Assembly (NCBI GenBank): GCA_000310025.1
Contig: FN649750.1
Location: forward strand, 4,195,246-4,259,245
Length of the DNA stretch: 64,000 nt
Direction of reading: 5' to 3'
Origin: Ectocarpus siliculosus
Lineage: Eukaryota > Sar > Phaeophyceae > Ectocarpales > Ectocarpaceae
The notes beneath the pieces are model-generated. The model was not told the origin of the DNA. It made no database searches and saw only the letters and a program-made list of their open reading frames with translations. The position numbers were made by a program, and so were the translations under genes. Each line of letters starts with the position of its first letter. The first letter of the stretch is position 1. Of this stretch, positions 4,878 to 64,000 are shown in pieces.

Positions 4878-5352
4878 TCACTTCCAATCATCCCAGCAAG
4901 CAGTAGTACTGCGGCGTACGAAGCTCAGCCTCGGCCTCCCGCCACCGCTTAGAACAGCATCCACCGCCCGGAAAACGGCCAGTAGAGGGGCCCAAGGCGC
5001 TTCGTCCCTCGTTTCGTCGGAGGTGAGACCACATCTCCGCTCCTGCCCAGCGGGCACTGGCCGTTTCGGAACCGCCTCTCGCAAGGACTCCGTATTAATG
5101 CCGTGCCATTCGCTACGGCCAGTCTTGAATCTGCCTTGGGCGTCTTCTATCCCCACCTGCTGTTGTTGCTGTACTTCCGTCGCAGGTAAAACAGGTGGCT
5201 TTTCAGCAGATCGTTGACAGCGGCATGCATGCGATAGCTCGCGCGCCAGGGCGGGGACAACAAGGCGGGAAATGTCCGTTTCCGCAGCAAGAACGGAGGT
5301 GGTCCGCAGTTGTCGCGCGAAGAGCTCTGCTGTGTGTCCTAGCGCGGAGTCG
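4878..5352 (-). CDS. exon of an unidentified gene, possible 3' end of the gene at 5.9-8.8 kb
   Basis: Open frame of about 158 codons after a strong acceptor (TTTTCCCATCCCAG just above 5352), ending at a TGA at 4878-4880. The start has one base left over (phase 2). Residues run SDSALGHTAELFARQLRTTS, then a helical hydrophobic stretch (RLVVPALARELSHACRC), a Q5 run, a charged middle (RREAVP-like and TSDETRDEAPW) and APLLAVFRAVDAVLSGGG before the stop. Just before the stop the sequence GGAA|GTGAGC is also a good donor, so the exon may instead splice onward. The upstream exon at 5935-6025 ends in a different phase, so I cannot prove both belong to one gene. No family was recognised. Confidence 0.5.
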
Positions 5353-5934
5353 CTGGGATGGGAAAATTGCGGTGGGGCGTAGAGGCGGGGCGGGGGGGCG
5401 GAGAGAAGGGCATACCGGGTGAAGTTTCAGACAAGCGTGTGTGAGGGTGTGCGTTATCATCCTATCAAGTGTGGATGTTTCCTCCCGGTGGTGTGTGGAC
5501 CACCCGAAACGTCCGCCGACAAGTTGGTATAACATTTTTTCCCGATGAGGGCAACGAAGAAAACACAACACTCTCCCGTCTACCCTAATTTAACCCCGCG
5601 TTATTTTTACTATACCTGCAATGCGCGACAGCATGAGGCCAACGCACAGATGCGCTAGAATCGAAAAGTGCACATCAATATTGTACCAACCTAGGGTTAA
5701 TTTTTTGTCACAAAACATAGCCGGAATGAAAAACAGCGACTACCAGCAGATTCAGACAACACGTGGAAAACAAAAGAACAGAAGAAAACGGAGAAGAAAT
5801 CGAGCACCAATAGGGACAGAAGTCCCTGAACACGCTACATCCATGCCATTCAATTTGGGTTTGTCTATCTCGGGCTCAGCGAAAGCTAAGAGAGACAGTG
5901 TGCGTGACGCATGTAAACATTTGTTGACCTTCAC

Positions 5935-8766: not shown

Positions 8767-9084
8767 TGTGAGTAAAAGAGAGTCGTTACCCAACCACCAA
8801 TGTTGTATAATCGCTGTGACACCCGGCACCCGGGAGGTCTAGCAGTTGACCTCACCTACAATAGTGGCATGTTGCGAGTGGATCTCTCCGTGGGGTGAAA
8901 CATTCCGATAAATGTCGCGAATACGCACACTTCGAAGTAGTAAATAGTCGACGAGGGAAACGAACGGCTTAACGCTTCTCGTGATAAGAAATAGGGGATT
9001 TACCACAGGAGGAAAGGTGGCGTATTCAAGCAAACACTACAAAACAATTCTTCATGATACCGTAAGGATGCGAGAGAACGGTCG
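8767..9084. other. upstream region of the 5.9-8.8 kb minus-strand gene
   Basis: It must contain the promoter and 5' leader of the minus-strand gene whose ATG is at 8766. I see no clear TATA box or other element. Confidence 0.3.
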
Positions 9085-21966: not shown

Positions 21967-22740
21967 ATGGCGAAGGCGAGGAAGGGTGTCGCGGGCATCA
22001 CGAGGAGGAGACGACGCGGATTGCTGGCGATCCCTGTTCTTGCTACCGCTACTGCTGCCGTCCTTGCTCTCGGGGTTGATGCGGTGTCCGTACCTGAGGC
22101 CCCGGCGAGGGTAGACTTGGATGTGATGAGCGGAGACGAGGTGGCGGTGGCATTTTCCGCTCCGCTGAGCGATGGAGGGTCTGCGGTGCAGAGCTACGAG
22201 GTGTGTGGGCTGTTGTCGTGAGTCGGCTTGTTGTGTAAGCCAAGAGCATCTCTCAGGAACACCGCGCAAATGCAAGTAAAACACGTTTTGTATGCACGTG
22301 TACTGTAGAATACCGTGTGTGGTATTCCGTGAAGACTGTAGTGTTTCAACATGTGTGTTTCTTGTTGCGACACACTTGGAAATTATAACAGGGAAGGTCA
22401 TTATCCTTCCTGACACTGTGCTACTGAACGTGCCGCGAGGAAACCGTGTAGCACATGTACTGTAGATGGGCCGTGAAAAACAGAGGCTTTGGCGGCGACA
22501 TTCCCTCGAAATGCTTCGAAAACATAATGTGCACGTCCTGACTCGGAATCTTGTTTTCATCTGTATCACCCTTCCTTGCAGATTGAGTGGGACACCGACC
22601 CTGGAACACGAGAGGTCCAGTGGATAAAAACCTATGCCGACACCGGCCCAAACGAGATCCAGTCTATCACAACCACCGCCGACGATGTTGATGAGGTGCA
22701 ACAGCTCATTATCTCTACAAACGAGACCCGAGAAGTTCAG
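21967..22740 (+). other. giant gene exons 1-2: signal peptide and first FN3 domain
   Basis: Exons 21967-22200 and 22582-22740. After the signal peptide come PEAPARVDLDV and FSAPLSDGGSAVQSYE, then EWDTDPGTREVQW, the usual fibronectin III pattern (proline start, DGGS turn, Y-x-VEWDT). Exon 2 ends with IQSITTTADDVDEVQQLII, which begins the repeat array. Confidence 0.8.
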
Positions 22741-25700: not shown

Positions 25701-28700
25701 TCAACTGGACGGTAACCTTCACCAGCGACAACCAGGATGGCGACCTTCCCCTGCTTACCGTTGAAGCAGACGACATCACGGCAACGGGCGCGTTCATGGA
25801 GGTGTACTCGCTGGAGGATGGCAGCTATCTTGGCGGTTTCGTGAATGTTACGTTTGCTGGGAATTCGAGCCAGGTTGCGGCCAACGCGACGGCGGAGGAG
25901 ATGCGGGTTGCCCTAGAGGCCCTCGGCACTGGAGGCCTGGCTGTCTCCAGAGAAGGTATACCAGTCAACCGTATGCTAACAGATTTATAAATTTTTCTTT
26001 TGGGGTTCATTGAGGTTCGCTGGGATGTTCGAGTTTTGGTCACACCACAGCTGGTGTAGCGAGCTGTGCGTTGGTCCTGCCTGCCTGCTTTATTTTTTCA
26101 TCTTGCATCACACCACTGCTGTGCTCACATGAACCCACTCCAACAGGGATTTCTTGTATCCTGTATTCATTTTTCCTGCTTTGTGTTTCGTTCTCAGCTT
26201 CGAACGCTGGTGTTTTCTTCGTCGGCTAAGATGTGTTGGTGCACAACCTTGTTGCTTCACTTGTCTTGTTCGCTGAGGTGGGAAACACCCCAATAGCGCA
26301 GCAGCAATCTGCAGCAGAAAGCTTTGGTTTCTCGGTGGAGGCTGTAGCATCGTGCGAGTTTGCAACAGAGTCCAGGCCCATTTGATCAATGTGGGATTGG
26401 GTTACACAGTGTTCAGAATGTCTGCCCTTGCATTATCGACTGATTCCTGATGCCCCAGAGAAAGTTGGTAGAACCGCCGGTTCACTGCTGCAGGGCAGCA
26501 ATGGCCTGAACCCACACCTCCAAACTATCAGGTATATAATTGAGCTGACTAGCGTTACGGTAAACCGAGTAAATCAAATATTTTCTCGCACGTCTGTCTC
26601 TCCGTGCCGCTGGACTGGTGAACACGATGGATTAATGGCGGGCAAACGCTTCCAGGCCCGGATAACCAACAAGGCTACGTCTGGACGGTGAGTGCCAATT
26701 TGTTACAGGTTTGACCCGTTGCTATCGTCTCTTGGTTGGTATCACTATGTGAGTGCTGTTGTTTCGGGAGCCTGGTTGTGGGGGCGTTCCTAGTGTTGCA
26801 GTTGCTGTAGCTTCGCTGGCGCGGGTGTTCGTAGCCTGACGCCTTTCTCTCCGTCTGGATGACCGATGACCACCCGATTTCACCGCTATCTAGGTGAACT
26901 TTCTAGAGACGGAGGGAGACGTTGACATAATCGAGGTGCATGGGCCAGACCTCACGGGAGACGGGAGCGCCGTTGTTTCCGAGGAGGTATGACATCAGGC
27001 GCAGTCTTATCTGCTCTCTACAAGTGTTGAAAGTTTACCGCGTACAGGTTTGCTTTTCTTTAGATTGCCAAGACCTCGGTACTAAACCTCTACAAGCACG
27101 TGCAGACGTCGTCAAGACGAAACGTTGGATGGATGCCTCTGTGGGGAGAGTAACTTCGAAGCACGTCGCATCTTCCCCACCATGGCGGGCCTGTATCGTT
27201 AGACATGCTGCTGCCAAGAAACCCTGATATGTTGTGCAATGGCATGCCAAGAACCCTGATTGTTTTGCAATAGCACACGACAGCGGATCCGAGTGGACGT
27301 GGCACACCAACAAGCTGAGTTCAATCATCACATTTTGTAAGGTATCCATGTTGGCAAGCTCAGGTCAAGATTGTTTTTGATCTTGTTTTCATGGCGTTTC
27401 AAAAACCCCGCGACAGGTTCGCAAGGGTACCTGGCAGGAGATCCAGACCATAGTGGTCACTGCCGCGAACGACCTGTTGGCCGTGGACAACTCTACGTAT
27501 TTCGTTCTTTCCTTCGGGGGTGAGGTGACCGGTCCTATCTTGGCCAACGGCAATGGAAGCTGCGAGCCCGCCGTTTCCGAGGTTCAAGTTATATCAACGT
27601 CCACATCCGGTGAGGGCAACGCGCAGCCTTTGCTGTTTGTCGGAAAATGCCTAGCAGTGTTTGTGTTTCGTTGGACTACTCTGCACTACTTGTAGTACTT
27701 GCTGCACGTGCAGATAATGGCTGTTCCCGCGACAAGTTACAATGTATAGCCCGTGTGTTGTCGCATGATTTTCAATGCCTCTGTCACCAACAGAGAACAG
27801 CTTGTTGAGCCCAGAATTCGTCTTTTCAACCAATGTTATTAACGAATACTGTTGCTTGGGACGATCGCCACATTCGTGGTTTCTTGCCAAACCTCGAACC
27901 TTGCTCCGTGGCTCTAGAAACTGTGACTAACTATTATGGGTTCCGGACGCACGCGTCCCACGCCATTTGGAGAGTTGCGAGCTGGAACGATACCCATGCT
28001 GTTTTCGGATACATTTTTGCAGAAAACATACCATATGTGAGAGGGCGGGCGGCGTGCACAGGTTCCACAGGTTTTCTACCGATACATATCCATCCAATTG
28101 CGCTAGTTCGTGTGTACACAGAGGGAAGAGAGTGCTGAACTCTTCTCGCATTAAAAGTCGAAGGCAAAGCACCGCAGAAGGGGAAGGTAGAGAGTACTCT
28201 CCTGTGTGGCCACGGGTTGGAGTAAAGGGGACTAGTCCTGTGAGCGCTGATTTGAAGTGAAGACAAAAAAAAAAACAAATGTCGAAAGCGCAAACCTCGG
28301 ATCGTGTGGCACTATTGACGCTTTGATGTCCTAGGGTAAGCGGTCAAACTTCTTGTCGTGCTGCTACAATCCGCAGATACTACTTCTGCGGGCGGAGATG
28401 CGCACGTCTCATACGGCCTAGCTTTCCAGCTGGTGTTCTACTCCAGAGACGGCATGGTGGCTTTGAGCGACACCATTGATGCCAACCCTTCGTTCGGCGA
28501 CTGTTCCGAGCCTGCAGAGTCCATCCAAGACGCTCTAAGAGAGGTGCTTCCCACAGGGCGAACATCTGGTTTTGCTGTGTTTGTCTCGAGCGCCCCTGGG
28601 AATTCGTCGGGGTTACCTTCCAATGCCGTTTTCGTGTGAAATATAGACGGGGTGATCCAGCAACATTTCCTGACCATATTGAAAAACTACGTACAATGTG

Positions 28701-31700: not shown

Positions 31701-34700
31701 GATTGGAGGAAGGGGTCGCGTATTATTTCCGCGTGACGGCGTCCAACTACATCGGATCAGGTACGGCTTTGTGGTAGTGCTTATTGTCGTCTACGCCTTT
31801 GTTTTTGGATCTGATCATCGCTTTGCCGCCATGGCTTTGCATGTCGGTGTCGTCTCCACGCTGAACATCGTCGCCCCACCTTTTTGGTTGTGAGGTTAAT
31901 CCTACTGGATGCTGCTGTCGTTGTTGCTGTCGTCCTTGCTGCTAACTTCGTCTTTGTTTTTTTGTTGCCGTGGGGTTCCTTGCAGGGCCTCCTGCGGTGG
32001 CGGAGACACCATACGCTATTCCTCTCCCGCAACCCAGCCAGCCCCCGTCCAACATCACGTTAGAGGCTGTAGATGGCAGCACCCTTAGAGTCGACTTCAG
32101 CCCTCCTTCCTCCACCGGTGGAGAAGAAGTCGACAGGTAACACGAAACACTTGCTACACGAGTAGCACCGGAAATCGAGAGCAAGTTGTGATACAGGGTA
32201 GTGTGTGTTTTGAAGATGATATTATAGCGAAAGGTCTGCAGTGCCCTACAAAAGAAGGAGGTGTGTCTTCAATCTTTCCTTGTCCACCGGCGATAATCGC
32301 CGGCAACACGTCTATGAGAGATACATCACAGGTAGCAGGCTTGTAACAAGGATCACATACGAGGATTTTTTTTTCCTGTAGGATTTGAAAAGGTGCCACT
32401 TTTTGTTCGCAGCCACCATCCTGAAGCTTGACCATTCGTCCGGCGTGCAGAGTCCGACATGTTTCCTCCCCCAAAGGCCCGTAGCCCTCACCGACTCCCG
32501 CAGTTCTCCTTGCAAGAGTGAGTCACCCTGCACCGTCACAATGCGTTTTCGATCATCGCTACTCTTCAACCTTACCTCGATGGGCTCGCCCGAACCAGCT
32601 ACCGCGTGGAGTACTCGACGTCCCCATTCTTCGAGGAGGCCCAAGCCCTGACCATCTCCTGCGAGTCAGAGCCGGAGGTGCAGGTAGTCACCACCAACGC
32701 CACCGCCGTGCCTGAAGTCCAGCTTTTGCACCTCAAGATGGACGACAACTTTACCGCCGACTATCCCGGGACGACGGTCTTCGAGGTCCAGGCAAGTGTG
32801 ACTCTAAAGGAAACGTGGTGTGGCTCTCAACGGTGTGTTCTAAATTGAAGTACAGGATAGTCGACTGTGCAGGTGAATTCCGTTTGCATCATGAGAGCAT
32901 ATGGGAGCGGTGAATACTGTCGCAGCGGGACGTACAATGGCCCCACGGTACATGGCCTACATTGTAGCCGCATGCCGAGGTCGTTCTAACAAGCAACTCC
33001 GAGCCCTGCCCCGCATTCAGAAAGAACCAACACGAGCGAAAGTTCGTTGGTGGGGTTCACACTGAAGCACACGCCCCGGCGCCAATTTGAGGGACGTCTC
33101 CCCAATGGCCCAACTTTCAACGGCGAGCAGTGATGACTTTGCCCCCGCCTTCAACCTTCGAATTGAACAAACAGGAAGTATCGTGCGACGCTAGCGCGGG
33201 CACGTTCACGCTAACCTTCGACGGTGCAGAGACCGACAGCATCAGCTTCGACGCCGATGAAGCCGGAGTGATCTCCGCTTTGGAAGAGATCTCCACGATC
33301 TCCGAAGTCAACGTCACCTTCAAAGACGGAGTTTCGCAGGCCTGTCAGGCCTACCCTTCGTCTCTGGGTTTCAACGTCACCTTTTTGGAGGCTGTTTACT
33401 ACCGGGGAGATGTCCCACTCATGACTTCAAACATCGACAACCTAGAGGTATGCACATCAGACGTTGACTGGAACATCGTTTGCTCAGGGTTGAAGTCAGG
33501 CACCTCATGCGTGCTGCCTTCAGATACGCCGCGTCGGTTGGGTTGAACGTGATAATTCCTCTTGACGTACTATCTGTCGAGTTCTAGGTATCCGATGAGG
33601 CGGCCTTTCTGCCTTTTTCGATCATCAAGGGGAACGCAGGATGACCCTACAATAACACGGTTCTCAACCACTGAGTAATGTACCTTCTCAATAGTTGGGG
33701 AGGTTTGCAGCTTGGGGAAGGTCACCTCGCGCGTCGGTGCTCGTGAGTTTGCTACAGCGACGGTAGTAGTTGGAGCTCTGCAGCACACAGCGAGCCCAAT
33801 AAGGGCGGAGTTTTGAGAAGACTGCAGTTTAAGATATTTCGACGTTCTGCATTTCGTACTACGTTAGGGTGCTCGGCGCGCGGACGTGACGGAGGTGTCG
33901 AAGGGATACGCCAGCATGGGAGGCACTTTCAAGCTTACCTTCAACGGACACACCACGGATATCATCAGCTACAACGCCGGCGCAGCCGATATTCAGGTAG
34001 AGTATACCCGGTACCTGGGGAACTGTCTTTAATGCTACATGACTGTAGCTGTAGTACCTCATTGAAAAGGGATCGATTCGGTGATAGGCTGGAGTTCACA
34101 GAATGCCTGGCAAGGCTCGTGAGGGCGAACTATCAAAGGTGACAGTCGAAGCCTGCGCCACAAGATGTATGTTTGTTGGTGTTTCATTGGCTCTCTCTCT
34201 TTCTGCGTAGCCCAAGCCCGTACGGCCGTCCCATGCACGTTCTCCATGACGTCCATCCACTAACCATGCCGAAGTTGGAGCCCAAGGATGCGATTCGAAT
34301 AATGGCAGGAATGTCATTGAACCCTCCTTGCAGCCAATCTATCTCGGAACTGCCCAACATATTTTACACTGTGACGACCGTGCTCGAACCGTTTCCCCTT
34401 CACTCTCTGGATTGTGCGACTCATTTCGAAACCTAGGCGGAACTCGAAGCCCTAGACCCGATTGGCTATCTCGGCGTCAACGTCACCTCGGCGGGTCTCA
34501 GTGCGCAGTACGAGAAGATGTGGCGAGTGTCGTTTGTCGGCTCCACCGTGGAAGGCGATGTGGAAGCGATGCAGGTGAACCATTCAAACATACTTTTTCA
34601 CCTTTGGCGACGCAAGAAGGTGCTGTTGTTTGTCACAACATATTGCGGGTAGGTTACTGTGTTGCTTGTAGGGGGGTGGTCCGGAAACAGATGAAAAGTG

Positions 34701-43655: not shown

Positions 43656-43721
<66 letters not shown>

Positions 43722-49700: not shown

Positions 49701-52700
49701 CTCGCTGATAAACACCGACCCAATTGCTTCAAATCTCTTGCTTGTCTGGAACATGGCGTTGTACTGAAACGAGTTGGCGGTTTCTCCCTACGCGGCACAT
49801 TGACCAGGTGTTTTGCCAGGGGCCATCGAGTACCGTGCATCAGTAGACCTTGTCAACGGGACGTTCCACGACATCGTGCTGGAATACAGGGAGAATGATG
49901 GTGCCGCCAGCATCCAGGTCTGTCTACGTTGCTTCTATTTTCCTGTTGCTGTTGTTGCTGCTACCGTTATTGTTGTTAAGGTAGTGGGTAGCACTGGTAA
50001 TGCGGTGTCTTTGCTACCGTTGCGAGGTTTTCTTTAACCTGTGGTTGAAATATGTAGGCCACCGATTGGATACCGAGTGGGCGATCTCTCTGGGGTTAGC
50101 GACGTCGAAAACAGCCTCCCGATTTGATGAAACATCGTGTCTCTTAGCCAATGATAATGATTGTGGTATCTCCACAGCTTCCTGCTATTACTTCCAAGCT
50201 GTTGAAATTACCATCAGAATCGGAGGACGTAAATCGACTCATCCCCGTCATTGATGCCCCCCGCCCTCGGTAACACTCGGGTGCGGTGCAGCTCATGTGG
50301 AGCAGCTACAGCACTGCGCCGGCGGTCATTCCCGCGTCCGCACTGTTCTACACGACGCCTATCTCGGGCTCACCGTACAATATTTCCGTCGTACCTGGGG
50401 CGGCCGCCTATCCCTTCACCGAGGCCTTCGGGGAAGGGGTAACGAACGCCTCCGCCGGGGTGTTTGCATCTTTTGTCATCCAAGCCAAGGTATGTATACG
50501 TGGGGATGCCGAATAAGCTTACCATGGTGGGATTTAGCGATTTTGGTTGTTTGTGGTCGACACCCCTGGAGGGTAGAGGTGTTGCGTGCTAGAAGGGGGC
50601 TAACGAACGCCCTGGCCCAAAGGCTTGGTCCTGACGTATCGTGCACACCCAGGTGCGAGTGACGCTTGGTTTGGCATGATGCTCGACTGCTTTGTAGCTC
50701 AACTCCTATTTTTTTTTGGATGGTGTCGGTGAGGTAGAAAAGAGGGCACAAGAATACAAGAAGTTATCCGAGAATGGATACTGTTTTTTGCCAAGGTCTC
50801 TTGATGCTAGTGTGTGTTGAAGACGTTTGGGGCTAGAGCTAGCAATATATCGTTCACAAGGAAATACGCACAGGTTTCAGGGTCAGTCCAAAAATGCCCA
50901 TACATCTGATAGCCTATTTGCCAGATTTTTGCCTTGTTAAAGCATTCTCTCTCCGTGCTTGGGGGGCGGTGCTGGGAAGTTTTTCTGCCTTGCCCCAATA
51001 CCTCTGCCTTTATACCCCTGCCCGTTCTCAGGACGCCTGGGGCAACAACGAAACCCGTGACGTGGCCGACGAAGAAGGGAGCGCTTTCCAAGTAGAACTT
51101 AGCTTCGGGTCACGTACACTAGGACCCAGCACCATGGGAGCTCCGGAGTACATCGGGGATGGCGCCTACAGTGTCAGCTATGTGGCCACAAAGGTGAGTT
51201 CAATAGTTCGAGGGGTGGAGCTGGAGCTAGCCGAGGAGAGTGAGGTGATGATGATAATCCATTACCTTAATCGTCACACCGCAGATGCTTGGGACCCGAC
51301 CACGCCGGACGCTGGTCATCACCTCCGGAGGCGCTATCGCCAAGCACTGGGCACACACGATTCGTCTACTGCACGTTTGGTGTTTACTGCTTGTCGCTCC
51401 CCACTTTCGACTTATACGAAAAGGGATTGATGGAAGGCAACGCTACCTGTTGTTCGTGTTAACCTTAGCACTACACCAATGTTTGGCGACGAAACGTACT
51501 GCCGAATGGGGCCTTTAACGTCGAATGTTGCTGTTTGCATGCACGGTAGGCCGGAAACTACAGCCTGTCCGTTAGGACAGCGGCTGGGGCGCACATCTAC
51601 TGCGGCCTTGCTCAGGAAGAGGCGTGCTCCCCTTTCGAGGTTGTCGTCTCACCCGGTCCGACCACCGCTTCCACTTGCGAAGCCGAGGGGGACGCCTCTC
51701 CTGCCATGGACTCCCTCGCAGAAGGGGTTGCAGGGATGACGGGATACTTCAACATTCAGGTGACACACACGTACATGCCTTCATTGCTTGCTCTCGGACT
51801 ATCTGGGCGAATCTCAGCACAATATTCTGTGTATCCCGGGAACCATATTGTGTCGGATTCGCTGAGTTGCGTCCCCAACTCGCAGCAGATACTCTGTTCA
51901 TTGACGTGTTTTGGGTAATTCTGGACGCTTTAATATCCTGACGGATTTATTTTCGGCTCTTGGACACATGCACTATCTCGTCGGCTGACTCTATGCGCCT
52001 GTAAGAAGACATTGCAGCCTGTGACCTCCTGAATAACGCTCGCCATTGATTTCCTGGTTGAAGTCGCCACATGGCGCATTGTGGCGAGTTCAGCTCAATG
52101 CAGAAATTGTGGCATTTTCTGTTTCGTGCCCAATCCCATGTTATCTGCAGGGCTTTCCAACGAAACTGCTGAGTTGTCGAGCCACTAGTACACACTCCAA
52201 GCCCCGACCATTGACACCCACGTTGGCCCGTTCGTTGTCATGCTTTCTCAGGCGAAAGACACTTTCGGCAACAATCGCCTTGAAGGGGGCGACGAGGTCT
52301 CCGTCCATGCCGCGCTGTCGGAATCGACGACATCCTACAGGGGGACCGTCGTTGACAACGCTGATGGGACCTACCTAGCAGTCTACACCGTTCCCCGGGC
52401 CGGGTGCGTGCCAGAACGGTTTGCAGACACTGCTGCACTTCTACCTCCTGCGAAACACCGCTCGATCGGAGAGTTTCGTTTCTTGAGTTAGTAGGATTGT
52501 CTTGCTACAGTCAATATCTACATTGTATCGAGAACCTCCAGCGAGCAATGGCTGTACGACGTGTCCTTCACCGCGTACACTGTTCGCCGACAGTCAACCC
52601 CAACCAAGACGTCCATCACAGTTTGTAGGTGTCCTTCCTAGTTCGGGTGTCCTCCGTGGCCATGAGGGACAGTCGTGCTTCCTCCTCCGATCGCTCTGCC

Positions 52701-52715
52701 CTTCCTCTCCCCTCG

Positions 52716-52759
<44 letters not shown>

Positions 52760-55700
52760 CCCTCTCCCTCTAACCGCCATTTCTGTCTCTTGCTCGCTCC
52801 ACAGGACGTACTCCATGCGAGTTACCATCGGAGGCGAGGCCGTCCAGCACTGCACCCCTCCCGTCAACAGCACCACCACCTCCGTGCTTAGTCGCGAATA
52901 CGATGGTATCTCGGTCTACTCGCCGCCATCGGGATGCTCTCCGGACTATCCCACCCTCACCGTGGTTCACGGCGACCTGCACACCCCGAGCTGCACTGCG
53001 GAGGAGGTCGCCAATAGCGGAGACGAGGGGCTTTCGAAGGCTGTCGTGGGTGTCCCAGCGAACTTCCAGGTTGTTTCCCGCGATGCTTTCGGGAATATCA
53101 GGTTCGTGGTTGCTGTTCTTGTTCTTGTTGCTGCTGCTGCCGCTGCCACTCGTTACGATTATCTGTTGAGGCATGTTGCCGTGGCGATACTTGTGGTACG
53201 TTTCAATTTTACCATGTTGATGTCATGTTCGTGCCAGTCTGCGCAAAAGTGCGTTGTTGGCGTGCAAGTGTAGAAGAACACCGTTCTTCCACATAATTTT
53301 ATACCGAGATATATACATTATTTGTCAGAGATATTTTCCAACTTCTGCCGAAAATCACGACTCCTCGAGACAGTTGGAGACAACTGGAACGGGCACTACT
53401 GGCTATCACAAGATTACGCGACTCAACAACTTTGTTCGCAACGTCATAGGTGCTCAATCAACACAATTTCGTTCTTGTTCCACTCGCACCTTCACATTTC
53501 AGAACTGGCGACTCTACGACGCACTTCGGGGGCTACGGGGACGGGAGCTCCGACGTCTTCATGGCCATCCTCTCCGGCGCGAACGGCTACCGTGTCACGA
53601 CTTCTTCTGCTGTACAAATCGTCACCGTCGCGAACGGAACCGCGGAAGGGTAAACGTTCGTCGCACGTATGCTAGAGCTGAACCGACTGGGCATGAACAA
53701 AACCCTTTGGGTTACTCCTTGAAACGGGTTATCCACGCGATCCAATCAAAGCTTCCCCGTTCCAAGAAAAAGCGAAAGCGTAAGTTTGGTCTTCTCTGCC
53801 ACTAGTCTTTGTCTACGTTTTTCGAACAGACCCTTGCGCACTAGTAATATCAAGCAGACCTCACACAATTGCGTGTCACATCCTTACGCATATCCCGCCT
53901 AACAAAACACTACCGTCCTTCGCTGGCCATATTCTCTCTCTCTCTCTCTCGCTTCATGCATAGATCTTTCCGGCTGTACTTTGCCGGGGATGTATCCCGA
54001 GAGGTACCCAACGGAGCAAGCGCCGCAGAGTTCCAAGCGGCGTTGATGGGCATCAAGCAAGACCAGGCCACCGCTAGTGGGGGAGAGGAGATCGTGAGCG
54101 CGACGGTATCGCTGGATTCGGATGCCGATTCTGGGGCTGTGGCGTGGCGGGTGACCTTCCTTTCTCACCTGGACGTGAGTGCTGAACACCTCGGGATATG
54201 GGTATAAGTGGAAGGAGACGCTGTCAGACTGATTCTGAGAAAGATTGCCTGATGGTTGGTTTCTGCCAATTCGGAGAACTTTCTTGGCCGGTCGATATGA
54301 AGTTGTTGCTATTCGACTTGTGTATCACACATGGATTAACCGAATCTCTAAGCGGACCAGCATCACGGACGCCACACAATGCACCACCAAGTGTTGGTAG
54401 ACTAGAGTATGGCAATACGTCCCTTAATTCGCGTGTCTTTACGTTGTCTACTTCGATGCCCCCCGGAATACCATCTACATATCCTCTATTTATCTTGGAA
54501 GGAGGCGCCCTAAGCACTGCCCCTGGCAATAGCTTGCGTCTCGACAGCCAACGACAACCATTATGTCACGTCGGCCTTGTCCTGCACGTACACAACCTAA
54601 CGTGATCAACGGCTTTATTTCCGCTGCGATCGGCATCCAACGCCACGGTGAACGCAGGAATGGATGTCTGATCCGCTTCAAGTCATGGCCGCCTCAGACG
54701 GCTCGACATCGATCAGCGACATGATCACCGTCAACAAGACGGCGTCGGGGGGAGTGTACCCAATGGAATACACCCTCCACTACCGCGGCACGTATGTGAT
54801 GAACGTCACTGGGGCAGACGGCCAGGTGAAGGGCGACTGCGGTGTGTTGAAATCGTTGCATGAGAGGTCACGAATGTGTAGAGTGTTTTCGAAGCAATGG
54901 GAGAGGATAGGTCGCGTGTCCTGTCGTAGCTATGGTTTCGTTCCAATAGCCCGCAGTATCGTTTTTCGTGCGGAGCCAAAAGGTAGCGATAGGCTCCGTC
55001 GATCTCTGCTGCTCGTTAGTATTCTTCTCAAATAACACCCCCTAGTGGACAAGCTTTCGTCGTATCTTGTTGTCGATAGATACGGAAACGCACCTTCGCG
55101 GATAAATAATTGCTTTTCGTCTCCCATGGCATCGAAACCCTTGCTGTCAGAGCTGCTTCGACTTGCTCTCCTTTGCATTGCACCGTTCGAGCACGTAACG
55201 CCAATGTGGCACATTTGCACCGTGTACCTGCATCATTCCCCGTTCCGTTTCTCTTCAGCACATTACTGGGTCGAGTTTCTTCGTAGACACCGAAACCAGC
55301 GACACCGATGCATCATCCTCCACCGCGGAAGGCATCGGGCTCTCGGGAGGGGTGGCGGGAGAGCCCCTGCGCTTCATCGTCCAGGCCAAAGATGAGAGGG
55401 AAAAAGAAGTCCAAGCCCTTGTCGCTTGGGCAGAGGTAAGGAAGCTTGATTGACCCTTTGACCGCTCTCGAGAAAAACAAAGCTTGCAGCATTCAGAGGC
55501 TGCACAGCATCTGGTGTACATGCATTTCTCCAGAACGGAAGGGTTAGCGTACAGAATCAGGAGCCCTTTCCTCTCTTCTTGAATGCCTGTGCCGTGTGCA
55601 CAGTGTCTCTTCTGCGTGTTCTGGCCTACTGGCCTAGGTCGCGGCCCCTTGCATCTGTGGGAAAAATCGTCGAGGGAGCTCACCATACATTTCTCGGTTG

Positions 55701-58700
55701 ACATGGATTGGGCGTTAGTTGGGTGTTTCCCATCAGGGAGGTGTCGCGTTTAGTCTTCGCATCCCACTCGTCGTTCACGCTCCCTTCGCCAGTTCCTAAC
55801 TCCTTCTACCATTCTGTGTATGGCATTGAATAGGTTGTGGATGTCGTGCCAGAGGTGCAGAGCGTCGCTCTCCTAGGAGCTTCGGCCGAACCTGTCTACT
55901 TGTCCTTCCTGGAGCAGAACATTACAGTAACGATCGGCACAGACACTCCGGCGGACATCCAGGCCTCCCTCGAGGCTCTCCTTACGGTACGTGCGCAGCA
56001 TCCTCAGTTTCGCCGTAGCTTAAGGTATCATGTCATATTTGTCACGGTACAGAGTCCCAGCTCTATACCTTCAGGGAAATACGTATATGGTCGTTGACCT
56101 TCGTGTTGAGCAGTCTTCCGTCACCAAGAGCTGAGACAAGCCATGGAAGTCATCAGGGTTCACCCCAAATACCCCCGGTATGCTACACTGCCGCCGTCAC
56201 TGCGACCATCTGTACAATTGCCGCTTACCACCGTGCCTCGTGTAGTAGGTGGATTGACAATAACTTTCTTCTCATACCCTGGTGACGGCTGAATCCCAGA
56301 TCGGGACTGGGAACGTGGAGGTATCCAGCGACGTCGGATCATCGACAGCTCTGGACAATGGAGACACCTTCTCCGTCACCTTTACCGGCGTATACGGGGA
56401 TGTTCCCCTCCTCACCCCGGTTCCGTCTTCGCGAGCGACGGTTACATCGTCCACCGAGGGAGACGCCCCCTTCCGAAAGGAAACCCAAGCTTTTTCTTGC
56501 ACACTTGGTGCAACGGGGGACCTCGTGTTGAACTGGCGAGGATTGGGGAACGTCACGGTGGCGGCGGACGACGACCTCGACGCGTTCGAAAGTGCCGTTT
56601 CGTCGGGGCTGACGAGTGTAACCGTCGTCGGGAGTGACACGACGGCGGTCTGTTCGGGTGAAATCGTGTACATCACCTTCCATGAGGTAAGATCACAGCG
56701 TCACCGTTATATGCCGTACCGCTGAAGCAGGGATTGTTTTCTTGTTGGCACGGGACAGACACAGCAAACGAACCAAACCCTAACCAATATTTTCCTATAC
56801 ACGCTTCCGAGAACACAAGACATTTGGCCCTCAGATGCTCACAGATTTCTGTATTCCAATTTTGGAAGGGTGCTTACCAGAGTTGACACCACACGATGGA
56901 ACTGTTATACCGGGGGTGGGCGTATGCCCGCATTCAAGGTATGAAAGAGGTTCGATGAAACTGCGCCATGTGTTCGGGGCAAGCAAGACCTAAACCGAAC
57001 GTCTGCGAGACGATGGATCCGATCCAGGGCCTTCCAATATGTGTAAGAGAAACCCTCTTCCTGTCCCTCGCCCCCCCCCCCCCATTTCAGGCCCGCGGAG
57101 ATGTGCCTTCTTTGTCCTTCGCACCTGCGGACACCTTTACCGGAACCGTGACAATTTCTACAGCTGGATCGCTAGAAGGGATTGCTCCCCTGTGGGGGAC
57201 GTTTGAGCTGGGGTACGGAGGAGAAACGACGTCTCCTCTCTACGCAGATGCCACTGCTGGTAAGCTCGGTGCTCCAGGCGCAACAACGTCTTGAACCCCC
57301 AAGCATATACTGTAGTACTAGCGTGTTCGCACGTTCACCAATACGACGTGCGTGCAAGTCCGGACCATGCCACCGTTTTTGCGGCATGCCCTACGTCTCC
57401 GTGGTAACGATGCCGTAAATTGGCTTTCTCGACGAGGGGTATCTCAGCGTGGTGTTATGTCATATGCGACAGGACGTACTTAACAGACGTTTGAACGTTT
57501 GTGCTTTCCCCTCATCAGCACGAACGCCGCTTTCACTGAATAAAGGTCGAAGGCGGGGAAATCCTCCATTCCACAATACGTGTCTTCCCACCCGCCGTGC
57601 TTCCCACGTGTTTCGTTGTATGCTGCATTCTCGATCACCTCACCTCACCACGCAGATGACGTGAAAGCGGCCCTTGAAGATCTCTCTACCGTAGGAGGCG
57701 TTAGTGTAACGTTGGGGCACATTGGCCTCTCCCTCGGGTCGGACGGTACTGTCTTCCCGCCGGGAGGCGATGACAGCGGCAACGACAACGTGACGTCTCT
57801 CTTCCCTGTCTGGACGGTCACCTTCGATGGAGATTGCTCGTTCGAGAATGACGTGTGGACCTCCTGCCCAGCCAACATCGGTGATTTAGAGGTATGCGTC
57901 CCACCCCATGCTGCAGCTTTGAAGCGATACGGTTAGTGTAATCCTCGATATGAATACGCGAACGTAGCACAATTTTCCGTACGTTCAACGCTGCCCCCTC
58001 GCTCCCGTGGGCACGTTATCCCGCCTGGGTACCCTACACATGCAGGGGGGCCCTGCCGAACAAGGCGGTTGTTGGGATCCCTTGATGGACAGTAGACCAT
58101 CAAGCTTTAGCTCAGTATCGCCCCTCGTCCCCTCGTGAAGATATCTAACGTTATGAAGTTGGGCAAGGAAAACCTTGTACCTCACGTTATTTTCAATAAC
58201 ATCTGGCGTTTTCTTCACGATTGGCAGCGGCCTCTTCCTGCACGTTCAGCTGCACACGCTTAGGGTTGAACCCATGATGTTGACGTTTACGCCTGGTTAT
58301 ACCGTAGAACAGCTAGCGTTAGAGGTCACTTCCAAGCGCTTTGAGTAGACTCAACATGTCAAGGCGACCACCTCATATAATACCACCGATTTTTCCCTCC
58401 GCACACACGAAACGTCAAAGTATCACACGCTTCACACCAACGTTGTCCCATCCCGCCTGTGGTTTTCTTAACACTCCAGCCGCTTGTGGTGGACACGTCC
58501 GGACTGGGATGGGAGGAATCTCCTTACAAGCACCAAGCGCCTCCCGAGATTCGCGTGTACGAGATCACCAATGGCACCGCTGGCAACAACCAGGTATATT
58601 GCCGACCTGACGCCACAAGAGATGCGTGTTTGTAACCTCCGACCGTAGTCAAGCTGCAACCAGAAGGTATGCGTGTTGTCCGCCTCTGCTAGTACATTGT

Positions 58701-61700
58701 TTGCTTGCTCTTGCCCGGTTTAGACGATGAAACTGTTGTTGAGTAAGAGAGTCTCCGAAACGGCGATCAGAGAAGCCCAAACCCTAACTCACCTTTTGTG
58801 GTGTGATATCAGGTGGACGAGCGCGACTGGAATGCTCTGGCTGTATCCCTCTTCCTCGAAGACAATAGCACCGACATCGCGGCCATCGGCATGAACGAGA
58901 AACAGGGATTCACCTGCCACACTGAGGCGGGGGGATCAAACTCGTCTGCTTACGTCGTGCTCGAGTTCATGGGGCAGAGTGCCACGATCAAGGCTAACGC
59001 CACCATTCCCGATTTCGCCGACTACATCGAGGAGATGGCCCGCGACGCCGGCTTAGCCAACTCGGTGGTCAACATCACGTCTCACGCGGGACAAGCGATG
59101 ATATGCGGAATCCATGGAGACGAGGTGGGTCAACGTTGCAGGGATCAACAGCCTTGAAACATGTACAGGCACACTTTCAGAGTTTTGGTTGGGCCTTCAT
59201 TGAATCACCTAAGCACTTGGAAGCCTTGAGGTCAAGCGGTTCGCTCCATTCCGTGCACGGTAGGAGTCAAACTTGCAATCGGCTAGGGTAAGATTTGCAC
59301 CCGTCCGGAGCTCAGCCAAACTCCAACCACGTTTCGTGTCAGATTTTGGTCGAATCGTTTGTGAATGTTCGTGCTACCATCGCTGGTTTCGTTATACACG
59401 GTGGATCGCCGCCGGACCACACGAGGTGGCTGTTGTCGAGACAACGTACGACCACGGTCATTGTACGATCACGATTACAACCTAATTCTCATTGGGCAAC
59501 CCTCTCTGTACCCTGCAGGTGGTTATTGAGTTTGCCGCCAACTACACGCTACCGGAGATTGTAGTCACAGGCTACAACGGGGTTGCCGATATCAACGTGC
59601 GCGAGATCACCAAGGGTATCGACTCCATTGCCTACCTTGGAGGGGGCAGGTAAAAGTTCTGAACGAGTGTTGCTGTAAAAGCAGCTGCATCTATGCATAC
59701 GAATAAAGCCGAACTTTGACCGCAGCTTTACGATAATGTCCTTACTGACCCGTTTCCCATCGCACCCTATATAGCGAGTTTCCCCTCAAGCCGAACGACA
59801 CCGTTCAACCAAATTCCTAGGTCCCTTCCCCTCTACGCCCCACAAACCCTCGTGGCTACACAATGCCGTGTTGACCCCATACCTCCTGCTGTTTTTGAAA
59901 ATGGCACACCTCAACCTCAGTTACCTGGTTGAGTACACTCCTGTTGTCGCTGGAAAGTACTACCCAGTTGTCACCATCGCCGACGAAGAAATCTCGACCG
60001 ACATGTCCGGAGGGGTTACCGTTACACCGGCCAACGCGTCGGCGGTGACGTCCACCCTTGCCTCCGATCGGGTGAGTGTTATTGGCAGAGTTGGTGACAG
60101 TGGCGGTGCTTTGTGACCGCCACGAGATATTTTGACTGTCAAGCAAGCACTTGATTCGACTTGACTATAATACCAGGCTTTAGATGCCAAGCATACAGTA
60201 TAGACAAGAGAAACCGAAATTGCTGCGTGTTGAACACCATCCGACATGGCGTCTGTCACCTCAATACATCTGCGCCTCCGCAACGGCGCTTCACGTACTT
60301 AGTAGGATGGTCCACGACGCTTGGAAGCTAACTATTGCGAGACGTATTTCCGATAGGTATGCATTTAATATTCTGGACCCTCAATTCTGCCCCGATACGA
60401 TACTCCACGGGGTAATCACAAACCCGGTCTCTGCACATTTGCGCGCAGGTGGCTTTCCAAGGCGTGCCCCACTACCACAGCCTGGAGATCCGAGACCGGT
60501 TCGGAAACCTTCTCGACGGTCACCCAACTGGTGGAGGCTTTACCGCCACCATCACCGGAACCCCTGACGCTCGCGCTGGCGTGACACAAGAGCACGCTTC
60601 TGATGTTACCATCGCGGCGACGGTTTCAGAAGAGACAGATGCAAGCGGGAAGCTTTCGGCCAATTTCACCCCCGATATCGCGGGGACGTACGTGATGAGC
60701 AACGAGTTTACTGGGCCGGGGGGGCTCCTGGGCACGTTTTTCCGGACCAAAGATTTCATGGATCCTGTTCTTGAAAACTCGGCCTACGCGACTGAGGTGA
60801 AACTTCTTGTTCAAGCTTGGTTACCACAAATCGTTAGAGTGTGGTGTTTCGAAATCTTGCCTTGCGTTCGGCACTGGTGTATCGTAGCCTCCTTACCACA
60901 CGCACCATCAAGCGTTTCTCCTTTCACCACCGATTTTGCTTCGCCTCTGCTTCGCAGGAGCCGTACCACGAGCTTCCTTTCTGCCCTTCTACAATGGTGG
61001 AAGGGTGTGATTCTACAGAGCTGGTGTCCAGCTTGACCCTGGACTGGGGGACCGCTAGTCCTCTGCAGGCCTGGCCTGGCCTAGGCTTCCCTGCAGACTA
61101 CTTCAGCGTGAAGCTCGAGGGCTTCATCATGGGTCCCACCGACGGAACGGTTTCCTTCCAGGCCACGGCGGACGACTTGTTCCGGTTCACAGTGGACGGG
61201 GTCGTCGTGATGGACACCGTCACGGCTGGGGGGGATGCCTCTACGTCCATCCTTACGGCAGAGGTCGACATGACGAAGGGCGCTTTGCACGCAGTGACAA
61301 TCGAGCTGGTGGAGGAGCTAGACGAGGCATCGATGAGCCTCCTCTGGTCCTACGACGGCGCCGCGGAAAACTCCCCGATGGAAATCCCCTCGTCGGCCCT
61401 GTACTTCACGAGACACCTCGAGGGCTCTCCTGTCACCATCTCCGTATTTCCCGGGGAGGTGACCGCAGGCACTACTTCGTTCGATGGAGACGGCTTGGTC
61501 GGCTGCGTTGCCATGGAGGAGTGCTCCTTTACGGTAACCGGGCGCGACGGCGGCAACAACATTCGGTTCACGGCCGGGTCAGACGAGTGGGACGTGGCGG
61601 TGGATGGGGTGGGCGGCTGGGCCGCCGAGGGTAGGGTAGGAGAGTTTGTCCACTCGGAGGACGCGCCTCTGTCTGCGGGCGCCGTGGCATGGTCGCCCGA

Positions 61701-64000
61701 GGACTGGACCTACGCAGGGAACGTGACGTGCGTGGCCGAAGAATCGTCCTGCACATCGCAGCGAGATTTGAGCGACCTCATACAGAGGGGTGACGCGATA
61801 GTCATCGCCGGGGAGACGCACGTGGTGGACCCAGACGTCACCGAGGCGTTTGACTCTACCTCGCTTCCGCTGGCTTCCCCCTTCCTGGGAGAGTCGGGCC
61901 TTTACGAAGTCTTTAAGGTCGGTGACAACACGGGTAACTACACAGTTACCTACACCCCGCTCGTTAGAGGTGACTACTCCGTGACGGTCAAGAAACCCGC
62001 CATTTGGGAAACGCAGCTGGTGCAGACAGTGGTAGAGGAAACGGGTGATGACCTGGCTGGCACGTTTACGTTGGCATACGAAGGCGAGATCACCGTCCCC
62101 ATCGCCTACGACGCCATCGGGAGTGACGTGGCGTCCGCCCTGGGCAACCTGTCCGCCCTAGCCGACGCCAACGTGACCGCCGAGACGTCAAACTGCTCCA
62201 CGCCTGAGGTAACCTGCGCTTGGCTAGTGACGTTTGTCGGTCTGTATGGTGACGTACCGCTGCTAGAGGCCGACGTGGAAGTGCTCGAGGGAAACGCTGC
62301 GAGCGTGGCCATCGCGGAGGAGATCAAGGGGCAAGCTGCCCTGGACATCGGTGGCTCACCCGTGACAATGTCTGTCGTTCCGAACGATGCTAGTGCCGGT
62401 CAAACGACCGCGTGGGGCCGGGGACTCTACGAGGCGACCGCAGGAGAAACAGCCACCCTCACGGTGCAGGCGCGGGATGCGTACCAGAACAACAGGCTCG
62501 ACAGCCAGAACGATTCCGTGTTCCTTGCGCTGGCCTTCGCGCCGGACGCTGATCCCGCCGACGTTCCTCCGGTGCACGGCACCGTCATCCCGCTAGGCGA
62601 CGGAACCTACAACGTATCCTACACTCCGACGTTTGCCGATACATACGTCCTGGCGGTCCTCATGTCTACCGCCGTAGAAACGCAGCAGTTTTCGTTCGTG
62701 TTCGATTCGGACGCAGAAGCGTCTGGGCGTTTCACCCTGAGGACGGGGGACGGAGCCCAGCAGACAGAAGCACTTTCGTACGATGCAACCGCTGACATGG
62801 TGGCGTCGGCCCTGTCTGCTGTGACCGGCATCGGACCGGTACAAGTTACACGAGAGGTTACATCGGTGACGTCAGGAGCGGCCAGCTGGTCGTACACGGT
62901 GGCTTTCATGTCTGTTGTGGGAGACGTCGAACAGCTCACCGTTGGCTCTGAGGACCTAGTAGGCCTATCGGAGCCCCCTTCTGTCACCACCGTCACGGAG
63001 GGAGAGGCTGAGCACATTAAGACGGCAGAGGCCTCCCTTCTCCCCGAGATCCAGGTGGTGCGGGTGAGCTCGCCCTCCATGTTCAACACCACTCTTCTAG
63101 CTGACGACGGTTTCACGCTGTCATTCAAGGGGCACACCACTGCCGCCCTTGCCGTCAACTCGTCCGCCGAAGAGCTGGAAACTGCGCTCGAGGAGCTGAC
63201 CACCGTCGGTGGCGTCAGTGTCTCAAGACAGGACGTGGCGGGAGCGTCTCTGTACGGCTTCGAGTACGCGGTCGAGTTCGAGCCTTGGGGAGCTCACGAC
63301 CTCGAGCACTACCTCAACTACGGGGACATGCCTGCCATGGTGATCCAGCCCTCGTTCAGGATGGCACTGCACAACGTCACGGCGAGAGTGTACTCCGGCG
63401 GAACCCCTAGCGCCGACGCCGCTATCACTCAAGACGGCGCCTCTCCCTTCGTTCCGGTAGTGTCTCCGGGCGTCGTGTCGTGGGAGGCGTCTACTCCTGT
63501 AGACGAGGACGGCGTGGTGGACAAGGACGGGTTGAGCTCGGCCTACTACGAGGCGCCCACGTCGTTCCAGATCGAGAGCCGCGACAGCTTCGGCAACCGC
63601 GTGTTCGACGGCCCCGTGAAGGAGGTCCAGATTATCGAGGTTTCCACCACCTTGGGCGGCGTGTTGGCCGGGTCTTTTGAGGTGTCCTACCAAGGCCACA
63701 GCGTCGGACTAGACGCCGGCGCAAGCCTGGCTGAAGTGGAAGCCGCGATCGAGGGACTGTCAAGTGTGGGTGCAGTGACTGTGTCAACCGCGTCCGTTGT
63801 CAACTCAACAGCTTTCGGCGCCAGAACTGGGAGTGTTATCGCTGGCTCCCCGTACGTGACGCCATCTGCCGACGTGTCTTCGATACTATCGGAAGGGGAC
63901 TGGCTCCGGTTGTGCGACGTCAACGACGGGCTCGTGTACGCCGTGAGGAGCGTCGATGCATCGTACCCCTACACCATCACCCTCGACTCCCCTTACGGTG
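21967..64000 (+). CDS. giant secreted mosaic protein with fibronectin III, PA14, filamin-type and novel repeat units (3' partial)
   Basis: About 66 exons and 15.3 kb of coding sequence (about 5,100 codons) are in the window; the frame is still open at base 64000. I chose ATG 21967 because it gives a classic secretion start (basic RRRRR, hydrophobic GLLAIPVLATATAAVLALG, then VPEAPARV opening the first fibronectin III domain). Almost every exon joins the next in matching phase between a GTAAG/GTGAG-like donor and a pyrimidine-AG acceptor. The order is signal peptide, FN3, ten or more repeat units, FN3, more units, an FN3 group, more units, PA14, filamin-type repeats with an inserted block of units, filamin repeat, PA14, then filamin repeats and units in one long exon. 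NxS/T sequons are dense (more than 25 in the first half), which fits a secreted glycoprotein. It has no catalytic motif. It is probably a cell-surface or extracellular-matrix adhesion protein; the ligand is unknown. The separate entries below give exon coordinates. Confidence 0.85.
23098..23330. repeat. foldback element 1 (inverted repeat)
   Basis: The left arm reads CAGATCGAATCGG, CTCCAAGCCCCATTC and GAGTGGCCCCTCTCCGGAAA. The right arm is its reverse complement with changes (CGTTTCCGGAG, GGGCCACT, GAATGGGGCTTGGAGGAG, TTTGTCGGCCG). The hinge is near 23211. A tail at 23351-23405 (CGGCCAAAATTGTACTCCAT and ACAACTCTACAGTGTTC) is repeated after element 2. Confidence 0.75.
23402..23772. repeat. foldback element 2 (inverted repeat) with shared tail
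   Basis: A second copy of the same family. The left arm is at 23402-23515 (CTTCAGATCGAATCTG, GAGTGGCCCCCCTCCG), the loop at about 23516-23589, and the right arm at 23590-23703 (CGTTTCCGGAGAGGGGCCAC, GGTTCGATCTGAAG). The tail at 23717-23772 matches the tail after element 1 (CCGGCCAAAGCTTGTACTCC, ACAACTCTACAGTGTTC). Confidence 0.75.
23842..23941. other. assembly gap (100 N)
   Basis: Exactly 100 unknown bases, with C-runs at 23772-23790 and 23942-23961. The 50 bases after each C-run resemble each other closely (TGTCCACCCCTTTCCCC and TGTCCACCCTTTTCCCG). This suggests the same locus was read twice and the gap is artificial. It falls inside intron 2, so the coding model is not affected. Confidence 0.95.
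24150..30892 (+). other. giant gene exons 3-15: first array of ~100-residue units
   Basis: Exons 24150-24296, 24708-24902, 25040-25183 (donor AAC|GTGTCA weak), 25263-25394, 25667-25955, 26656-26687, 26894-26986, 27417-27609, 28377-28543, 28954-29058, 29438-29575, 29927-30100 and 30695-30892. Each unit has an EVQ/EIQ-I start, then GGxFxLxFxG (GGDFRLGFSGYTTSTISYDA), YDATAxE, ALExLxxVxxVxV, a YTWxVTF strand and a GDLPLL loop. Several copies are degenerate, for example 28377-28543, which has an unusually long loop with a cysteine. The smallest exon (32 bases, 26656-26687) encodes only GPDNQQGYVWT. Confidence 0.8.
31475..32791 (+). other. giant gene exons 16-18: unit end and second FN3 domain
   Basis: Exons 31475-31760, 31986-32136 and 32599-32791. 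Residues VAGLEEGVAYYFRVTASNYI then PPSNITLEAVDG, RVDFSPPSSTGGEEVD and SYRVEYSTSPFF are fibronectin III strands. The last exon ends VFEVQ at a GC donor (CAG|GCAAGT) instead of GT. Confidence 0.8.
33175..36924 (+). other. giant gene exons 19-24: second array of units
   Basis: Exons 33175-33447, 33868-33996, 34437-34574, 35161-35322, 35858-36217 and 36632-36924. Signatures include AGTFTLTFDGAETDSISFDA, GGTFKLTFNGHTTDIISY, LSGTFTLTLRGWETE, SIDFNAADTEMELALEALP, YSWYVTF and VEASLEALDEVGNVVV. Introns fall just before the ALEAL helix in several units. Exon 24 ends with the start of a new FN3 domain. Confidence 0.8.
37275..39677 (+). other. giant gene exons 25-29: group of FN3 domains
   Basis: Exons 37275-37598, 38054-38182, 38409-38493, 38801-39053 and 39478-39677. 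Strands include DITGLEAGTAIYARVSAHT, PPAAVRLVETSESSIAVEW, DGGADIAGYELWMG, SGRAYRFKVRAVN, WSAPMDNGGSEVLSYKVRF, EGELYTFYVQAVNAYG, VTLSWAAPVDTGKSPVTGY. This is about three consecutive fibronectin III domains with good core residues (W, DGG, Y-x-V, L-x-x-x-T-x-Y). Confidence 0.85.
40094..43616 (+). other. giant gene exons 30-36: third array of units with a partial FN3
   Basis: Exons 40094-40322, 40633-40856 (ends at a GC donor, GAG|GCAAGT), 41313-41526, 41761-41897, 42277-42573, 43049-43201 and 43505-43616. Units are marked by AGGTFTLRVMADALGGEID, GDFSLIYRGHETAALSYDA, VKRQLENLDTVGIVSVERN, WTVTF, GDLPML and SGNFSLSVSGGGMESVLI. Exons 33 and 34 (FTASGLVEDSLYAFKVVPLS) carry an FN3-like end. Confidence 0.8.
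43662..43719 (+). repeat. (GA)n microsatellite in an intron of the giant gene
   Basis: Pure GA run of about 29 units following a GA-rich stretch that starts near 43620; wholly intronic. Confidence 0.95.
44133..48525 (+). other. giant gene exons 37-44: unclassified segment and more units
   Basis: Exons 44133-44217 (tentative), 44257-44398, 44692-44785, 45365-45460, 45908-46183, 46798-46947, 47496-47642 and 48085-48525. Exons 37-39 encode SYPVGRTVTLNMKTSPTSII, GGDLFFTELYKIEEDGSIEW and FCLVFEWEKVTYTTGNGTGC, a segment unlike the units. Exon 37 cannot be joined to exon 38 in phase. The rest are units again (LKDALETIDVIGEVDVAY, LLGDLPLLEY, ALLEELSSVYDVSVSVV). The 441-base exon 44 holds nearly one and a half units in one exon (IKATLEALDTISTVSV, GGSFSVEFGGYTSGDLPYDA). 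Confidence 0.75.
48783..50489 (+). other. giant gene exons 45-48: first PA14 domain
   Basis: Exons 48783-49004, 49442-49616, 49808-49917 and 50292-50489. PA14 hallmarks appear in order: GLSATYWDN, VKFSWGTG, DYVSARWSGKLLAP, FTLYVKADDGARLYVDHELV, DAWEG, GTFHDIVLEYRENDGAASIQ, LMWSS. PA14 is a carbohydrate-binding beta-barrel in fungal adhesins and bacterial glycosidases. The DDGARLYVD core with adjacent aspartates is intact, so sugar binding is plausible. Exon 48 continues into the first filamin-type repeat (YNISVVPGAA, FVIQAK). Confidence 0.85.
51032..53649 (+). other. giant gene exons 49-53: filamin-type repeats
   Basis: Exons 51032-51193, 51550-51759, 52252-52403, 52805-53101 and 53503-53649. 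Each repeat shows the filamin/ABP280 pattern: AKDAWGNN or AKDTFGNNRLEGGD or SRDAFGNI, then DGAYSVSYVATKAGNYSLSV or DGTYLAVYTVPRAGTYSMRV. The third repeat has long cysteine-containing insertions (HTPSCTAEEVANSGDEG). Confidence 0.8.
52721..52756 (+). repeat. (TC)n microsatellite
   Basis: Eighteen TC units in the intron before exon 52; probably lengthens its polypyrimidine tract. Confidence 0.95.
53964..59649 (+). other. giant gene exons 54-63: units inserted within a filamin-type repeat
   Basis: Exons 53964-54174, 54658-54825, 55259-55435, 55834-55986, 56300-56686, 57091-57259, 57656-57891, 58480-58593, 58813-59124 and 59519-59649. The segment opens with SFRLYFAGDVSREVPNGASA and AEFQAALMGI, then PADIQASLEALLTIGTGNVE, GVYGDVPLLTPV, WGTFELGYGGETTSPLYADA and DDVKAALEDLSTVGGVSVTL, all unit signatures. 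The filamin strands resume only after it (SYLVEYTPVVAGKYYPVV in exon 64). Confidence 0.75.
59921..60796 (+). other. giant gene exons 64-65: filamin-type repeat and start of second PA14
   Basis: Exons 59921-60071 and 60449-60796. YLVEYTPVVAGKYYPVVTIA closes one filamin repeat; HSLEIRDRFGNLLDGHPTGG and SANFTPDIAGTYVMSNEF make another. The segment then runs into GPGGLLGTFFRTKDF, the first strand of a PA14 domain that continues in exon 66. Confidence 0.8.
60958..64000 (+). other. giant gene exon 66: >3-kb uninterrupted exon, second PA14, filamin repeats, units (open at window end)
   Basis: It follows the acceptor CTGCTTCGCAG and reads 1,014 codons without a stop. Rough residue order: PA14 (1-130; FSVKLEGFIMGPTDGTVSF, ADDLFRFTVDGVVVMD, less canonical than the first), a filamin-type repeat interrupted by a DLIQRGDAIVIAGE/SLPLASPF segment (about 135-350; ends GNYTVTYTPLVRGDYSVTV), a unit (355-440; LAGTFTLAYEGEITVPIAYD, GDVPLLEA), a filamin repeat (VQARDAYQNNRLDSQND, DGTYNVSYTPTFADTYVLAV, about 460-580), a unit (GRFTLRTGDGAQQTEALSYD, about 580-680), further units (FTLSFKGHTTAALAVNSS, AEELETALEELTTVGGVSV), a filamin start (SFQIESRDSFGNRVFDGPVK) and another unit (AGSFEVSYQGHSVGLDAGAS). 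Codon use is strongly GC-ending. Confidence 0.85.

Follow-up and report, generated by a model that had tools for sequence, protein, structure and literature searches.

The stretch analysed here, referred to as the window, comprises 64,000 nucleotides of the Ectocarpus siliculosus contig FN649750.1 (assembly GCA_000310025.1, positions 4,195,246 to 4,259,245), and from position 21967 onward it holds the 5' portion of a giant predicted gene on the + strand. Elsewhere in this 189 Mb genome, a type III polyketide synthase exon is identical, over 90 of 90 residues, to PDB chain 4b0n_A, which is the Ectocarpus siliculosus enzyme. A preliminary description made from the sequence had placed here a single gene with some 66 exons and a product of 5,100 residues or more; our model agrees closely, with 64 exons that begin inside the window and code for 5,049 residues, and it extends the gene beyond the window. 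The model was built with an exon-chaining dynamic-programming program, in which codon usage was trained on large open frames and splice matrices were self-trained over five rounds, and under strict settings it gave one + strand gene with its ATG at 21967. With 160 kb of downstream sequence added to the window (the final 3.4 kb being N), the gene overruns the window edge and stops at extended coordinate 144104, the whole (G000:C25:4217212-4339349) having 172 exons and 17,536 residues with a mass of 1.835 MDa. The gene end was set at the first in-frame stop past the dense exons, the raw model having continued via sparse weak exons to 192912; given the first 150 kb, the program itself picks 144104, and an extra small last exon may lie beyond.

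FN3, PA14 and filamin, the domains named in the preliminary description, were all recovered by profile search of the predicted protein. Pfam fn3 (PF00041) exceeded its curated cut-off at 3.2e-27, with three stretches in residues 1400-1730, and a further match (2.3e-33) came from part of exon 102358-108627. Three PA14 domains (PF07691) were above cut-off at 8.5e-23, 4.7e-22 and 4.8e-10, the 4.7e-22 copy lying beyond the window end, and the Filamin/ABP280 repeat was matched at 1.2e-23 and 1.3e-18. No actin-binding calponin-homology domain was among the Pfam matches of the scanned segments, which cover part of the exons. The N terminus is putatively signal-peptide-like: the top 19-residue hydropathy window of the entire protein begins at residue 19, and only two other such windows peak above 1.6, at residue 387 (in an exon rejected below) and at residue 7186 (1.70). 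The predicted protein is strongly acidic (pI 4.05), and both the secretion-like start and the acidity are supported by computation.

The recurring unit that could not at first be assigned to a named domain proved real, with 78 copies found in the predicted protein by a hidden Markov model (HMM) that matched none of 11 control proteins made by shuffling or reversal. This guest unit is an alpha/beta domain of ~90 residues, and the kin found here are phage virion and bacterial domains; no model for this phage-type domain was found in Pfam or NCBIfam. Against the PDB, an algal-only profile matched phage Bxb1 gp23 (1.2e-30), capsid (1.7e-6) and tail-tube (0.0068) proteins, and a further unit profile matched the same three at 7.9e-65 (5 stretches), 3.5e-12 and 5.3e-6. 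The fold predicted by an AlphaFold model built on 62020-62346 agrees with that of the Bxb1 virion domain, and an HMM trained on algal units recovers full-length copies in phage and bacterial loci, with up to 83 bits. Short EVQ-type motifs are far commoner in the protein than expected (44 observed, 1.8 expected), 31 lying 5-30 residues upstream of a unit, and such a motif also precedes the phage and bacterial copies. The protein further contains 15 RGD motifs, against 6.5 expected from its GD count, a number partly explained by the GD-rich units.

The guest units are nested within the FN3 domains. FN3-half HMMs found 33 N halves and 31 C halves, mostly alternating along the protein. Twelve of the 29 paired FN3 domains are uninterrupted, with N-to-C gaps of 19-37 residues and no unit, and 17 are split by 1-15 units, with gaps of 155-2,686 residues. 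In this way, 51 of the 78 units are flanked by the N and C halves of a single FN3; only 3 of 28 C-to-N gaps hold units, 7 in total (Fisher p 2.2e-4 versus N-to-C). Four split FN3s sit wholly inside single exons and therefore cannot be produced by splicing error, and all four, once the guest is removed, give one fn3 match (6e-6, 6e-11, 8.4e-15 and 1.3e-11). Scanned alone, in three cases each, N halves cover fn3 positions 2-38, 3-39 or 3-41 and C halves 48-79, 51-76 or 51-78. Since the half-matches end and resume around there, we place the insertion site, at fn3 profile positions ~41-48, after strand C (the strand naming is assigned here). Nesting and domain identity are thus both supported by computation. 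The proposal that the protein could be a long sugar-binding surface rod is supported in part: a giant, secretion-ready mosaic of FN3, PA14, filamin and the recurring unit stands, and the simple rod is challenged by the 51 units inserted between FN3 halves, a placement checked closely in the four single-exon cases. The fungal adhesins invoked for PA14 offer an analogy only.

Gene continuity is supported by several properties of the model. Domains running across introns provide independent support for the splicing: a unit or FN3-half match encloses 91 of 171 introns, and counting the spans between paired FN3 halves raises this to 121. Intron phases are 120 phase 0, 21 phase 1 and 30 phase 2 (n=171). 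Of the 172 exons, 169 are kept at an intron penalty of -9, 168 at -13 and 161 at -15, and the gene is intact under four pairs of start/stop penalties, from -12/-10 through -4/-2. When the opposite strand of 15495-118748 was modelled for control, it gave a false chain of 95 weak exons and 5,423 residues (summed coding score 838); the forward-strand total path score of 4,445 is a different measure and not directly comparable. Because that strand also yields a 95-exon chain, single weak exons are not to be trusted. One of them, at 26231-26277, is very probably wrong; with a 32-nucleotide exon (26656-26687) in its place, the unit scores 68.7 bits instead of 51.6. Intron 2 (window 22740-24150) contains a 100-base N assembly gap at 23842-23941, amid long C runs, and a small exon may be missing there; a repeated inverted stretch was also noticed by eye near 23130-23690. 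Upstream, the 10 kb next to the window consist of N. The features of the gene within the window are collected in Table 1.

Table 1. Predicted features of the giant gene in the window, 5' to 3' (window coordinates)
Feature	Position	Strand	Basis or remark
5' portion of giant gene	21967..64000	+	64/172 predicted exons, 5,049/17,536 residues
Start codon and putative signal-peptide-like N terminus	21967..22092	+	polyarginine, then hydrophobic stretch; judged by hydropathy
First FN3: six guest units (24177-31603) between N half (22093-22602) and C half (31694-32011)	22093..32011	+	unit and FN3-half HMMs
32-nucleotide exon, probably missed by the model; restores third guest unit	26656..26687	+	AG acceptor and GTGAGT donor present
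Second FN3: four guest units (33196-36808) between N half (32039-32632) and C half (37276-37371)	32039..37371	+	HMMs
Two or more FN3 domains free of guest units	37399..39034	+	Pfam fn3; exon match at 38786-39034
FN3 N half 39522-39611, then seven guest units 40160-48794	39522..48794	+	HMMs, exon translations; no C half found by HMM, degenerate candidate by eye near 41855-42328
PA14 domain 1, over four exons	48933..50318	+	Pfam 8.5e-23
Filamin-type repeat, better of two stretches in segment	51661..52850	+	Pfam 1.2e-23; approximate coordinates
Three guest units: 53648-54750, 55912-56431, 57196-58509	53648..58509	+	unit HMM
PA14 domain 2, within large exon 60958-64701	61075..61377	+	Pfam 4.8e-10
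Guest units in one exon: 62056-62331, 62722-63003, 63112-63348, 63667-63798 (partial)	62056..63798	+	unit HMM
Filamin repeat in exon 60958-64701	62389..62664	+	Pfam 1.3e-18; two filamin stretches reported for exon

We consider it about an even chance that the gene encodes one giant secreted acidic protein with an FN3 backbone and inserted guest arrays, most likely an extracellular matrix or cell-surface cable, and the arrangement points to an extracellular cable or adhesive of a new kind. The backbone would be a chain of ~30 FN3 domains that spans distance, with over half of the pairable domains carrying an array of 1-15 guest copies after strand C and with a PA14 and filamin-type block in the first third of the protein. 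The looped-out arrays, together with PA14, could offer many weak lateral contacts, and the unfolding of an FN3 host would free the length stored in its guest array. Matrix location, adhesion and hidden-length behaviour are what we infer from this architecture.

Several observations weigh against this reading. The gene is a computational prediction throughout; the FN3-half HMMs were trained on this very protein; and the hydropathy scan of the whole protein identified no membrane or wall anchor. The alternation of halves is broken by the three unit-bearing C-to-N gaps, two C-C steps and four N-N steps; the N-N and C-C steps hold 20 units in total, and the step from 1725 to 5456 holds 16 units and the PA14/filamin block. 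Phage Douge carries Ig-like domains on its capsid and tail that bind mycobacterial glycans, according to an excerpt of the report describing them (PMC13033339), and glycan binding by the guest unit could be proposed by analogy only; the Douge chains were not among the PDB profile matches, their presence in the searched PDB copy being unchecked. Finally, a start/stop penalty pair of -2/0 yields seven pieces in place of one gene and the pair 0/0 fragments the model altogether, and 50 of the 171 introns are bridged neither by a unit or FN3-half match nor by an FN3 N-to-C span (PA14 and filamin matches being uncounted). The seven pieces and the unbridged introns also favour the first rival explanation, that the model fused several neighbouring giant genes of one family lying head to tail, and tandem duplication is common in repeat genes. 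We nevertheless regard such a fusion as unlikely, though deserving serious attention, since no internal start or stop is favoured at the four stricter penalty pairs, hydropathy shows only one conspicuous signal-like N terminus, and the FN3 halves flanking long arrays call for each other.

Somewhat less likely still, in our judgment, is that the product is a surface protein of swimming cells, either a flagellar hair component or a gamete recognition protein, and not a matrix cable. GEX2 is a plant gamete adhesion protein, and one of the filamin-type segments also matches the GEX2 N-terminal Ig-like domain at 31.7 bits (cut-off 27), another falling just under at 26.8; however, the filamin profile scores 84.2 bits in the segment where GEX2 reaches 31.7 and is likewise far ahead in the other. 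Likewise, the unit profile drew a non-significant match (E 0.2) to the OCM5 chain (PDB 9ufe chain EA), which may, to judge by its name only, be a flagellar-hair protein of a related alga, but with the algal-only profile, searched up to E 1, the chain does not appear.

A different reading of the nesting itself, in which each C half pairs with the next N half as a circularly permuted FN3 and the units lie between domains, not within them, is permitted by sequence alone, given that 23 of 28 C-to-N gaps are of 34 residues or fewer. We hold it to be improbable: the 12 unit-free N-to-C gaps have ordinary FN3 length, in the canonical order, and in all four single-exon cases the N and C halves, once joined without the guest, match fn3 in the regular succession. 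Convergence on a common alpha/beta fold as the source of the likeness between unit and phage domain is scarcely credible in view of the PDB profile match to gp23, the full-length recovery of phage and bacterial copies by the algal-unit HMM and the shared EVQ motif ahead of the units.

The protein that we favour, a secreted FN3 chain with guest arrays, can be set beside several known systems. Titin belongs to a comparable size class and also has FN3 chains; the Ectocarpus protein differs by its secretion-like start, and no kinase was among the Pfam matches of the scanned segments. With animal fibronectin and other FN3 matrix proteins it shares many FN3 domains, RGD motifs and secretion (here predicted), but its FN3 domains are split by guests and its introns are mostly of phase 0, whereas animal modular proteins have a class 1-1 intron pattern, according to part of one source (PMC8001218). 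Its predicted length is within the range of the largest proteins in a plant and green algal proteome survey, which an excerpt gives as 22,244 residues in Volvox and 21,004 in Chlamydomonas (PMC6681478). An excerpt of a 2021 review describes brown algae as having integrin-alpha-like proteins, without collagen, fibronectin or vitronectin (PMC8307928). A lineage that became multicellular independently may here have a large FN3 matrix protein of its own, for which this gene is a candidate. The gene also connects eukaryotic giants with a domain from phage particles, and its split-FN3 design makes a clear, testable prediction on mechanics. Among the matches listed in open-licence literature, we found no paper on this gene or arrangement; the parts are known, and their assembly into a giant modular extracellular protein appears new.

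The guest unit also occurs in other hosts. In Bxb1, the 90-100 residue domain that matches it lies in gp23 (tail tip cage) and at the C termini of the major capsid and major tail proteins (PDB 9d93, 9d9w), where it is part of the virus particle, in contrast to its place in a predicted secreted protein of Ectocarpus. The bacterial proteins that share the unit (planctomycetes, actinobacteria and proteobacteria; L040-L062) are single open frames, for example of 6,356 residues with at least 16 copies and 8,353 residues with at least 14, unlike the multi-exon Ectocarpus gene. Two of them are actinobacterial ThuA/GSDH/PKD/CBM6 proteins with the phage-type unit set inside GSDH: in Solirubrobacter soli (L040) the sequence ahead of the unit matches positions 1-134 of the GSDH dehydrogenase profile and the sequence behind it positions 137-223, and in Microbispora (L043) the two matches cover 1-134 and 167-223, the second scoring 24.8 bits, just below the cut-off of 25. 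Two further predicted Ectocarpus giants carry the unit alongside other host domains, and the FN3-half HMMs had no matches in either. The first (G000:C2:8120001-8170000, L023-L027; ~8,800 residues in 50 kb) has 13 units and cadherin-like or bacterial-Ig-like repeats, which at least two of its three arrays seem to interrupt, the flanks being read by eye; the second (G000:C12:585001-615000, L028-L030; ~6,000 residues in 30 kb) has 25 units and many IPT/TIG domains (9.6e-78). Its insertion in GSDH and, apparently, in the C2 repeats as well makes the guest unit look like a recurrent plug-in domain. More tentatively, and with rather less than even confidence, we propose that this plug-in unit enters loops of unrelated hosts in phage, bacteria and alga, and that in Ectocarpus its multiplication within FN3 loops would build a stored-length matrix cable whose hosts act as force-sensitive clasps, each freeing a guest array of 155 to ~2,700 residues when it opens. 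If so, brown algae would have come independently to a tough and extensible protein matrix, by way of a module otherwise known from phage particles.

Elsewhere in the window, the longest minus-strand open frame (7171-8838, 556 residues) gave no match in a Pfam scan, and elsewhere in the genome other single unit matches lie at C455:341454, C11:4614872, C11:419726 and C26:3754890 (E 1e-6 to 3e-3).
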